Part shown: positions 8,041 to 10,194 of the stretch, piece after piece
Layout of the letters: each line of letters opens with the position of its first letter
How positions within the stretch are numbered: the stretch's first letter is position 1
Assembly: GCF_017635265.1 (NCBI RefSeq)
Contig: NZ_JAGBLU010000030.1
Location: 1 to 64,000, forward strand
Direction: 5' to 3'
From: Butyrivibrio sp.
GTDB lineage: Bacteria > Bacillota > Clostridia > Lachnospirales > Lachnospiraceae
DNA: 64,000 bases
Notes under the pieces: generated by a model
What the model saw: only the letters and a program-made list of their open reading frames with translations
What the model was told of the DNA's origin: nothing
Databases searched by the model: none
Translations under genes and position numbers: made by a program

Positions 8041-8067
8041 CGCTGCAGTTATTCTGCAGCGTCATTT
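8041..8067 (+). other. Hairpin at the 5' end of the tRNA-Ser transcript
   Basis: An 8-bp perfect stem, CGCTGCAG / CTGCAGCG, with a TTATT loop is followed by TCATTTTT. It begins where transcription should start and ends just before the tRNA. It has terminator shape but would block its own tRNA, so it may be a processing or stability element, or a terminator for transcripts entering from the left. Confidence 0.6.
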
Positions 8068-8069
8068 TT

Positions 8070-8158
8070 GGAGTTGTACCCAAGTGGTTGAAGGGTCCGG
8101 ATTCGAAATCCGGTAGGTCGGCTCGTCCGGCGCAGGGGTTCAAATCCCCTCAACTCCG
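8070..8158 (+). tRNA. tRNA-Ser (anticodon CGA)
   Basis: An 89-base class II tRNA. The acceptor stem GGAGTTG pairs with CAACTCC, and the discriminator is G. The anticodon stem-loop CCGGA-TTCGAAA-TCCGG carries CGA. A long variable arm (GTCGGCTCGTCCGGC) and the T-loop GGTTCAAATC are present. It reads UCG serine codons. CCA is not encoded. Confidence 0.97.
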
Positions 8159-8199: not shown

Positions 8200-8748
8200 T
8201 CAAACACTGTTAAGCGATATCACCATCTCTGCAGCCTCAAGCATTGTTGTGCCTGAGTTCATGGCGCACTTTTGCAGGTACTTGTGTGCTTCGGGTTCAG
8301 ACATATGATGTCTCTCCATCAAAAGTTCTTTGGCTTTGGTTATGGTCTTCATATCGGCTTCACTTTTATGAAGCCTTTTTTGTTTAGCCTTTTTTCTGGA
8401 TAAAGTAACACCTTCAAGCATCATGTTGATAGTTGAATAAAAGTCTGCTTTTGAAAATGGAGATGGAAGAAATACCAGTTTTTCTCCATATTTATCAAAA
8501 GGAGCCTTATCCGCAGATGCAATCATCAGCATCTGAAAATAACCGGGAAGGTCCTGCGCAAGTTCAGAAAAGAGCATGTCATTTAAGCGGTAGCCACATA
8601 CTATGACTCCGCTCCCGAGATCCTCCATGGCAGAAAGCGCCTTCACACCTGTTGTACAGACAATTACGTTATCATATCCGCCACGCAGCAATATGCTTTT
8701 TATATGCTGAGCATCCTCTGCTCTTGAAAAAGCTACGATTATATTCAC
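8200..8748 (-). CDS. ANTAR-domain RNA-binding antiterminator with degenerate receiver
   Basis: A 182-residue protein. Residues 1-115 resemble a response-regulator receiver, but the phospho-acceptor position in GVIVCGYRL carries Gly instead of Asp, so phosphorylation there is unlikely. Residues about 120-182 match the three-helix ANTAR domain (ITKAKELLMERHHMSEPEAHKYLQ...AAEMVISL). ANTAR proteins bind paired RNA hairpins and stop terminators from forming. It lies 15 bases after glnA, whose leader carries a terminator with an alternative hairpin (10101-10157). The simplest reading is autogenous nitrogen control by antitermination. How the signal reaches a receiver without Asp is unknown; glutamine synthetase itself may be the partner. 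Confidence 0.88.
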   Translation of the reverse strand: MNIIVAFSRAEDAQHIKSILLRGGYDNVIVCTTGVKALSAMEDLGSGVIVCGYRLNDMLFSELAQDLPGYFQMLMIASADKAPFDKYGEKLVFLPSPFSKADFYSTINMMLEGVTLSRKKAKQKRLHKSEADMKTITKAKELLMERHHMSEPEAHKYLQKCAMNSGTTMLEAAEMVISLNSV

Positions 8749-8763: not shown

Positions 8764-10080
8764 TCAGAAATTATTGAGATACTTATCGATTTCCCACTTT
8801 GTCACACAGGTTCTAAACTCTTTCCACTCAGTTTTCTTGGCTTCAAGAATCTTGTTATGAACATCCGCTCCAAGAACTTCTCTGGTAAAAGAGTCTGTCT
8901 GATATGAATAAAGCGCCTCTCCAAGTGTGTGCGGAAGCACATCAAGATCCATTCCTTTGTTGTCATCTTTTTCAGATACTGCTTCCGGAGGTGTCATCTT
9001 TTTCTCTATTCCATCAAGACCTGCTGCCAGCAAAAGAGCTATTGCAAGATATGGATTGCAGGTGGCATCGGGATTTCTCACTTCAATTTGTGGATTTAAG
9101 TCAAGGTCTTTTGAAATTCGAATAAGGGCACTTCTGTTAGCCGAATTAGAAGACCATGATATATTAACAGGCGCATCATAACCGGGAACCAATCTTTTAT
9201 ATGAGTTAACAATAGGATTGGTTATCAGTGTCATCCCCTTCACATGGCAGAGAACACCGGCAACAAACTGCTTTGCTGTATCTGAAAGCTGTCCATCATC
9301 GCATGTAAAGAGATTTTTTCCATTTTCATCAGCACATACAAAGCTCATATGCATTCCGGATCCGCTTATACCTTCTACAGGCTTAGGCATAAAAGTTGCA
9401 TAAAGTCCGTGCTTCTTGGCAATTGTCTTTACTGCCATTCTAAAGGTCATAATCATATCAGCCGCCCTCACAGGTTCCTCTCCGGAAAACTGAATTTCAT
9501 GCTGTGCAGCCGCTATCTCATGATGTGAGGAAGCAATATCAAATCCCATTTCCTCCAGATTAAGGATTATTTCTCTTCTGACATTCTCCCCCTGATCAAG
9601 AGGTGCAACATCAAAATATCCGGCTCTTTCCTTGGTAGTGGTTGTGGGCTGACCATTATCATCATAATCGAACAAAAAGAACTCGGGCTGAGGATTTACT
9701 TTGAAATTGAGCCCCATTTCCTTTGCTTTTTCAACCACTTGTTTAAGCACATTTCTGGGATCTCCGGAAAATGGCCTGTTATCTGCGGTATAAACATTGC
9801 AGAACATTCTGGCAACCTTCCCCGCCTGTGGTCTCCATGGATATATCTCAAAACTGTCAAGATCAGGATAAAGATACATATCACTCTCTTCATTTCTTAC
9901 AAATCCCTCAACAGATATTCCATCAAAGGCGTACTTGTTGTCCAAGGCCTTTTCAAGACCACTTGAAGGTATGGCAATATTTTTGGGTACTCCAAAAAGA
10001 TCACAGAACTGGAGCCTTATAAAAGCCACATCCTCTTCATCAACGATACGTATAATATCCTCTCTGGTGTATTTGCTCAT
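8764..10080 (-). CDS. glnA: Glutamine synthetase, type I
   Basis: A 438-residue glutamine synthetase that makes glutamine from glutamate, ammonia and ATP. It has the beta-grasp N-terminus (IRLQFCDLFGVPKN), the metal and substrate residues in EFFLF, SSHHEIAAAQHEIQF, GSGMHMSF and NPIVNSYKRLVPGYDAPV, and ends near RTCVTKWEIDKYL. The C-terminal adenylylation tyrosine motif of Gram-negative enzymes is not seen, as expected for the Firmicutes GSI-alpha type. The start MSKYTRED was chosen because GGAGGG lies six bases upstream; a longer frame upstream has no site. It is followed by the ANTAR gene. Regulation is probably by leader termination plus feedback. Confidence 0.96.
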   Translation of the reverse strand: MSKYTREDIIRIVDEEDVAFIRLQFCDLFGVPKNIAIPSSGLEKALDNKYAFDGISVEGFVRNEESDMYLYPDLDSFEIYPWRPQAGKVARMFCNVYTADNRPFSGDPRNVLKQVVEKAKEMGLNFKVNPQPEFFLFDYDDNGQPTTTTKERAGYFDVAPLDQGENVRREIILNLEEMGFDIASSHHEIAAAQHEIQFSGEEPVRAADMIMTFRMAVKTIAKKHGLYATFMPKPVEGISGSGMHMSFVCADENGKNLFTCDDGQLSDTAKQFVAGVLCHVKGMTLITNPIVNSYKRLVPGYDAPVNISWSSNSANRSALIRISKDLDLNPQIEVRNPDATCNPYLAIALLLAAGLDGIEKKMTPPEAVSEKDDNKGMDLDVLPHTLGEALYSYQTDSFTREVLGADVHNKILEAKKTEWKEFRTCVTKWEIDKYLNNF

Positions 10081-10100
10081 TTTTCCCTCCATACAAATAA

Positions 10101-10157
10101 CAAAAATGGCGCACAAAACAAACGATCCCTCTGATCATTGTCTTGGCGCCCTTGCCA
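10101..10157 (-). promoter_or_regulatory. glnA leader: terminator with competing ANTAR-type hairpin
   Basis: On the minus strand, a 4-bp stem TGGC/GCCA closes the six-base loop AAGGGC (10144-10157), with A at loop position 1 and G at position 4, the ANTAR signature. A second hairpin, AATGATC-AGAGG-GATCGTT, lies at 10121-10139. The GGCGCC of the first hairpin can instead pair with GCGCC at 10108-10112 to give a long, nearly continuous stem around the second hairpin, followed by ATTTTT, which is an intrinsic terminator. The two folds exclude each other. Confidence 0.7.
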
Positions 10158-10165
10158 CTATTTTT

Positions 10166-10194
10166 ATATTATTTATTTTTGTCGTCACTGTCAA
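10166..10194 (-). promoter_or_regulatory. glnA promoter
   Basis: The minus strand has -35 TTGACA (10189-10194) and -10 TAATAT (10166-10171) with a 17-base spacer. The predicted start is near 10159, so the first leader hairpin would form at the very 5' end of the transcript. Confidence 0.8.

Follow-up and report, generated by a model that had tools for sequence, protein, structure and literature searches.

Can an ANTAR protein release transcription of its own operon through one hexaloop hairpin, or does it need the pair of hexaloops described for ethanolamine utilization (eut) leaders? The question is raised by a glutamine synthetase locus in a 64,000-nucleotide stretch of Butyrivibrio sp. DNA (hereafter, the window), where an ANTAR gene directly follows glnA. 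Our preferred answer, to which we assign a probability of about 0.7, is that the glnA leader is an attenuator at which termination is the default, that the ANTAR protein holds a single hexaloop and so lets transcription pass, and that the same protein drives a nitrogen regulon.

The dual-hairpin model stems from Ramesh et al. (2012; PMC3369931), who include glutamate/glutamine synthase enzymes among the predicted targets and report that both hexaloops are required in vivo for EutV of Enterococcus faecalis; a comment on ANTAR targets likewise names glutamine synthetase and associated regulators (PMC3369936). In the revised definition of Walshe et al. (2022; PMC8934654), one hexaloop makes up the minimal site, although two were retained for EutV. 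They proposed that the first EutV hexaloop serves in recruitment, showed that an EutV dimer is unable to touch the two hexaloops of an RNA simultaneously, raised the question why there are two, and left the role of single hexaloops to further work.

Architecture of the glnA operon and its leader

All operon features lie on the minus strand. The type I glutamine synthetase gene glnA (8764..10080; 438 aa) was assigned by Pfam PF00120/PF03951 and by NCBIfam TIGR00653 (452 bits, cut-off 429). The ANTAR gene (8200..8748) begins 15 bases past the end of glnA and encodes a protein of 182 aa, in which PF03861 and alignments indicate a receiver-like part and an ANTAR domain. A terminator scan placed a terminator-like hairpin, CGCTGCAGAATAACTGCAGCG followed by ATTTTTATTA, behind the ANTAR gene (8041..8061), which we take as the end of a two-gene operon. 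The next gene on this strand of the window encodes a GGDEF protein, so that no gene for a sensor protein adjoins the ANTAR gene within the operon. A plus-strand tRNA gene (8070-8158) faces the operon end across this hairpin, which the scan lists on both strands.

The leader lies between a gene for a LytTR-type response regulator and glnA. The earlier note, made from the letters of the sequence, had described here a near-consensus promoter, an ANTAR-type hairpin, and a terminator that excludes this hairpin, and we could confirm all three. The promoter consists of the -35 box TTGACA (10189..10194) and the -10 box TAATAT (10166..10171), which are separated by 17 nt and together match the consensus at 10/12 positions; between 8000 and 11000, the promoter scan listed 8 promoter-like sites, no more than the 8.1 of shuffled sequences. 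From the spacing to the -10 box we infer a transcription start near 10159, about two bases 5' of the first hairpin.

Hairpin 1, UGGC-AAGGGC-GCCA (10144..10157), is formed by the pairs U10157-A10144, G10156-C10145, G10155-C10146 and C10154-G10147. Its loop AAGGGC (10153-10148) carries A at position 1 and G at position 4 above a C-G closing pair, and with a stem of at least three pairs it has the features of an ANTAR-type hexaloop. The RNA then continues as CAAUGAUC-AGAGG-GAUCGUUUG, where a second hairpin (10124..10136) is made of GAUC (10136-10133), the loop AGAGG (10132-10128) and again GAUC (10127-10124). This second hairpin is the tip of a long terminator stem (10108..10150), the base of which pairs GGCGC (10150-10146) with GCGCC (10112-10108) and is followed by AUUUUUGUUAUUU. 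After the stem come an A and then five U (10106-10102), within the U tract UUUUUGUUAUUU (10095..10106); the ribosome-binding site of glnA, GGAGGG, is found at 10085..10090. The 5' arm of the terminator, GGCGCC, overlaps the loop and the 3' arm of hairpin 1.

Folding the 86-nt leader gave -28.6 kcal/mol, compared to a mean of -13.6 for shuffled sequences (z -5.3; none of 200 shuffles was as low). The terminator was not listed by a simple consensus scan, but the fold shows it. If hairpin 1 is enforced, the best fold reaches only -13.9, at a cost of 14.7 kcal/mol; hairpin 1 and the terminator are therefore mutually exclusive. When prefixes of growing length were folded, hairpin 1 appeared at nt 16-20 and persisted at nt 44; it had changed at nt 48 and was displaced at nt 52, and the terminator stem was in place by nt 56.

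Hairpin 1 is conserved in glnA leaders of relatives

We collected 29 loci of the same genus and 80 loci that represent the best 80 of 317 matches. The latter comprise 50 loci from Butyrivibrio and 30 others, mostly labelled Lachnospiraceae, and share many genomes with the 29-locus set; the nearest relatives among these best 80 matches are Butyrivibrio, with 87-88% ANTAR identity. Leaders were obtained from 107 of the 109 loci plus the window, and 82 of them are unique.

A CAADGGNG hairpin (loop AADGGN, at least three pairs) was found within 450 nt in 61 of the 82 unique leaders, that is, in 48/54 from the genus and 13/28 from outside. Among the 21 leaders without it in this range (6/54 and 15/28, respectively), L113, L117 and L137 carry the variant CAGGC-AGGGAG-GCCUG, L114 has GAAC-GGAGGG-GUUC, and the hexaloop site of L065 lies 2.2 kb upstream. 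For the remaining ones, nothing convincing was detected in 390-2670 nt of upstream DNA.

Since A1, G4 and the C-G closing pair belong to the searched core, their constancy is no independent evidence; the presence of such a hairpin in 48 of 54 genus leaders is a result in its own right. When cores were taken without the stem filter, 63 of 67 in the 82 glnA leaders close with at least three pairs, compared to 0/6 control cores read backwards and 2/5 from the antisense strand, which indicates that hairpin 1 occurs beyond chance; with the leaders of the ammonium transporter gene amt (see below) included, the controls give 0/8 and 5/12. The stem changes are compensatory (GGC/GCC, AAC/GUU, GAC/GUU, GAC/GUC, CAC/GUG). 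The covariation score of 0.478 compares to 0.212 for shuffled and at most 0.227 for slid stems and was reached by none of 500 shuffles. Over 48 distinct cores, which include chance cores and leave out those near a start codon, 98.6% of the cells are paired. Stem pairs beyond the third do not rise above shuffles in the glnA leaders.

Of 62 glnA sites, 58 are followed by a terminator-like hairpin displacing the hexaloop, in contrast to 25% with shuffled downstream sequence. In 39 of the 52 sites with a promoter match, the hexaloop stem starts 6-14 nt past the -10 box, and the hexaloop is thus usually located at the 5' end of the RNA.

Hexaloop attenuators precede other nitrogen genes

Pattern searches and inspection revealed at least 14 hexaloops in 10 units of the window's genome, each with its own terminator-like hairpin; this number is a lower bound of accepted sites, drawn from the matches listed and the stretches chosen for inspection. 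The regulon is thus wider than glnA, a point absent from the earlier note. Two hexaloops in series precede the gene for an Amt-PII fusion, an ammonium transporter with a PII domain, behind which lie genes for asparagine synthase and GSIII. Tandem hexaloops also stand ahead of a CP-ATP-grasp gene (with a weak U tract at the second site), of an ArAE/FUSC-like gene with an amidohydrolase, and of an ABC transporter ATPase that resembles a polar amino-acid importer. One hexaloop each precedes glnA and the genes for a Peripla_BP_6 periplasmic binding protein, a LysR regulator, a PPDK_N-domain protein and a C26 peptidase of the glutamine amidotransferase class. A further single site lies before a small Nif11-like ORF, which scores 21.9 bits, below the cut-off of 23.8, and has a weak U tract. 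The accepted sites include a tandem pair at C119:31200 and a site at C119:44870. Within this one genome the stems vary (GGC/GCC, AAGAC/GUCUU, AAAC/GUUU, GAGAC/GUUUC, GAUGC/GCAUC, AAGC/GCUU) around a constant AADGGN loop.

Some of these targets recur in other genomes. PPDK_N-domain genes (Pfam) that start with MAAF follow a hexaloop attenuator in L327 (G000 C8), L310 (G075) and L297 (G015), and such an attenuator precedes a GATase/phosphoribosyltransferase gene in L292 (G021). Nif11-like proteins (MxITExLDxLL...) are encoded behind hexaloop attenuators in two genomes (L308 of G021, assigned by eye, and L225:2152-2433 of G000 C84). The transporter in L228:7364-9247 (G000 C64) is an Amt protein with a C-terminal PII domain in one frame of 627 aa.

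The Amt-PII protein has a match in 58 of 61 genomes of the genus, and we surveyed 59 upstream regions from 56 genomes; G010 and G082, with fragment matches only, were excluded. Within 420 nt upstream, two hexaloops are present in 36 of the 59 regions, one in 19 and none in four, all of the latter being second copies or divergent homologues. When no stem filter was applied, 91 of 95 amt cores close with at least three pairs. The covariation score is 0.723 (0.258 shuffled, at most 0.237 slid; reached by 0/500 shuffles), with 93.5% of the cells paired and 59 double-changed cells over 43 distinct cores, for which both sites were pooled without a stem filter and cores near the start codon were left out. 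A terminator-like hairpin displaces the hexaloop in 84 of 89 amt sites, compared to 13% with shuffled downstream sequence, and 21 of 35 second sites have no matching promoter. Over all 61 genomes the pattern search returned 381 matches against 103 for the backward control; as overlapping U-run variants are recounted, these values are not a number of sites.

The ANTAR protein is the likely reader of hairpin 1

The earlier note had also proposed that the ANTAR protein encoded behind glnA controls glnA and itself. Gene linkage and distribution are in favour of this protein as the likely reader. In all 80 loci taken as the best of 317 matches, the ANTAR gene follows glnA in the same orientation across a gap of 6-386 nt, and a run of four U occurs within 70 nt past the ANTAR gene in 47 of these 80. 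The ANTAR domain (PF03861, E 2.3e-17, 63 bits, cut-off 27.3) is the sole match in the window's assembly, which is 88% complete. One ANTAR match each was found in 57 of the 61 genus genomes (that of G068 being a fragment) and none in four.

Aligned with EutV (6wsh), the RNA contacts Met172, Lys149 and Glu160 reported in PMC8934654 correspond to M163, K140 and E151, which are invariant in 39 sequences. The tyrosine that stacks on base G4 in EutV, Tyr164, is replaced by His155 in 39/39 sequences, although a histidine might also stack on a base. Arg168 is replaced by Gln159 and Arg175 by Gly166; R177 occupies a variable position. In the N-terminal part, no Pfam receiver domain was detected at E 0.001, and the phospho-acceptor Asp54 of EutV aligns with Gly52, a feature that goes beyond the earlier note. 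Because the receiver-like part lacks the phospho-acceptor aspartate, the activating signal is probably not phosphorylation. The alignment is compatible with an AmiR-type pseudo-receiver plus ANTAR.

The attenuator could nevertheless be real and its reader another one, such as a different RNA-binding protein, a ligand or translation, with the ANTAR gene a mere neighbour. The exchange of the stacking tyrosine for histidine would fit such a situation, as would three genomes (G015, G021 and G075; 81, 83 and 95% complete) that keep attenuators before genes and in which no ANTAR gene was detected; a co-loss test on these three does not support the ANTAR-attenuator link, and they count against a strict link unless the gene was missed through incomplete assembly, as is likely. 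On the other hand, the loop and its closing pair fit the ANTAR consensus given in PMC3369931, each genome with an ANTAR gene has a single one, beside glnA, and no Rfam family matches the leader at the gathering threshold. Moreover, G077 (99% complete, no ANTAR match) has no leader-like match: its four distinct pattern matches are each inside a long open frame. Pfam assigns domains to three of these frames, of which one is on the strand of the match and two are antisense, and none to the fourth (L303). Three of the five matches taken for leaders in the other genomes (L292, L310 and L297) are located in long open frames as well, each at the beginning of the downstream gene's frame. G077 fits the link weakly, as it also lacks amt. 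Altogether, we consider a reader other than the ANTAR protein quite unlikely.

No second hexaloop is conserved

The earlier note had interpreted the GAUC-AGAGG-GAUC hairpin both as the upper part of the terminator and as the second ANTAR site of a EutV-like pair, noting its five-base loop as a deviation. Its role as the tip of the terminator stands, but the assignment as an ANTAR site does not. In the three nearest leaders (L061-L063), the position of the AGAGG loop reads CCGAGUA, CUGAGUA and CUGAGAA, and neither glnA nor amt leaders conserve a second hexaloop. A strict dual motif, with the second hexaloop within 2-25 nt, was found in 0 of 82 glnA and 1 of 59 amt leaders. Less strict searches returned downstream A1/G4 hexaloop matches at 15 of 62 glnA sites, compared to 4.6 expected from mononucleotide shuffles, and at 6 of 91 amt sites, compared to 5.9. 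Nearly all of the glnA matches are situated in the 3' arm of the terminator and differ between clades; the only convincing one is UAC-AGUGGA-GUA in L138, from an outside relative.

The positive control consisted of 30 EutP-like loci from this order: the strict rule picked out a hexaloop pair in two of them, and pairs with variant first loops were recognized by eye in three more. The method can thus see pairs where they exist, and the glnA/amt leaders are a family without them. In the eut loci L360, L361 and L363, the first hexaloop varies (GGUGAA, GGCGAA and UGAGAA, respectively) while the second, AAUGAA, is constant.

Antitermination through a hexaloop pair, in which the ANTAR protein would use hairpin 1 and the AGAGG hairpin together, can still draw on several details. 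AGAGG has A at position 1 and G at position 4, the GAUC stem starts 7 nt past hairpin 1, in the range of the eut linkers (5-12 nt; PMC3369931), a five-base AAAGG loop also follows the hexaloop at C67, and L138 has the second hexaloop mentioned above. However, five-base A1/G4 loops number 10 of 62 against 4.5 expected for glnA and 5 of 91 against 6.3 for amt, the loop differs in the nearest relatives, and the strict motif is all but missing from a family that was searched with a rule that does find pairs in some eut leaders. We therefore regard use of the pair as improbable. The earlier interpretation is thus partly supported.

Highly improbable, and in effect ruled out by the covariation pattern and the tandem second sites, is a reading of GGC-N6-GCC at the transcription start as a DNA operator for a repressor with an incidental terminator: the motif does lie just past the -10 box, a usual repressor position, but its arms covary around a spacer that stays AADGGN, the reverse of a DNA dyad, tandem second sites are often away from a promoter match yet keep hexaloop and terminator, and the terminator displaces the hairpin in the amt sites as well (84/89).

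A model for single-hexaloop attenuation

According to the attenuator model with a single hexaloop, hairpin 1 would form first, once about 16-20 nt of RNA have been made. As the first element to leave the polymerase, it could be bound while about 30 more nt are transcribed. If the ANTAR protein captures it in time, the terminator could not close and RNA polymerase would continue through glnA and the ANTAR gene. If it stays uncaptured, the terminator would claim its loop and 3' arm around nt 52-56 and bring transcription to an end. One hexaloop per terminator would be sufficient, with no conserved partner resembling the first hairpin (P1) of EutV. The same protein would act on all hexaloop-terminator units of the nitrogen regulon, two of them in series before several operons, and nitrogen shortage may activate it by a route other than phosphorylation. 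Against this reading, one hexaloop may not suffice, given that both EutV hexaloops are needed in vivo (PMC3369931), or a cryptic second site may exist.

A bolder version adds to a regulon of single hexaloops without a recruitment hairpin that the ANTAR protein is switched by direct contact with glutamine synthetase. With no phospho-acceptor and glnA as the constant neighbour, such control is a natural idea, but we hold it as tentative and on balance doubtful. If true, glutamine synthetase itself would report the glutamine status to nascent RNA. In Bacillus, feedback-inhibited glutamine synthetase acts on TnrA/GlnR. The Butyrivibrio circuit would similarly couple the state of glutamine synthetase to nitrogen gene expression, but its regulator is a putative RNA-binding protein and contact with glutamine synthetase is hypothetical. 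A clostridial glnA followed by an ANTAR gene named nitR has been described.

The system shares with EutV and the eut leaders the ANTAR domain and the A1/G4 hexaloop on a stem of at least three pairs, and, as at the second EutV hairpin (P2), the glnA hexaloop overlaps the 5' arm of an intrinsic terminator. Unlike the eut leaders, those of glnA conserve one hexaloop, at the 5' end of the RNA, and the targets are nitrogen assimilation rather than ethanolamine genes. Unlike EutV, the protein has a receiver without phospho-Asp, no kinase gene in its operon and histidine for Tyr164. A receiver-like domain without phosphorylation residues, and hence another route of control, is also known from the pseudo-REC of AmiR (PMC8934654), but the operon in the window has no AmiC-like sensor gene, and the co-encoded partner is glutamine synthetase. 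The nitrogen regulons of Ramesh et al. (2012), such as that of Desulfotomaculum acetoxidans with at least 13 sites in six units, also place many attenuators before nitrogen genes. They were found with a dual-hairpin model, in contrast to the genus-wide single AADGGN hexaloops and the one ANTAR gene beside glnA reported here.

ANTAR control of nitrogen genes, including glutamine synthetase, is therefore already known. Natural single-hexaloop attenuators have been raised previously only as a possibility (Walshe et al., 2022), and a search of literature mostly outside subscription papers retrieved no description of ANTAR attenuators with a single hexaloop, nor of an ANTAR leader of Butyrivibrio glnA. 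The new element is putative ANTAR attenuation that dispenses with the hexaloop pair throughout a genus and a regulon. Many members of the leader family are candidates for natural single-hexaloop attenuators backed by covariation, and several occur in cultured Butyrivibrio, so that the question of Walshe et al. (2022) becomes directly testable. It also suggests a nitrogen circuit for a rumen genus, in which one ANTAR protein per genome would act on glnA, Amt-PII and other nitrogen genes.

Additional observations

Several matches with a stem or a terminator-like fold were judged unconvincing (L215, L217, L219, the minus strand of L177, L322, L338, L350, L384 and L390). C128:2674 (L188) was rejected as a target, since it is located beyond the end of an NRPS-like gene and faces a convergent neighbour. 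Three similar tandem pairs, with AAAC/GUUU followed by GARAC/GUUUC stems, precede different operons: L227:4633-4758, L228 at about 2182-2270 (G000 C64) and the minus strand of L223 (G000 C119:31200). They likely reflect duplication of a regulatory unit.

Five loci (L144-L148, from G007, G032, G004, G003 and G018, respectively) belong to a second, divergent lineage of glutamine synthetases with 40-42% identity and have no leader directly 5' of glnA. In L146, an ANTAR gene follows the divergent glutamine synthetase gene. An aminotransferase-like gene, recognized by eye, adjoins the divergent gene upstream in four of the five, the exception being G018.
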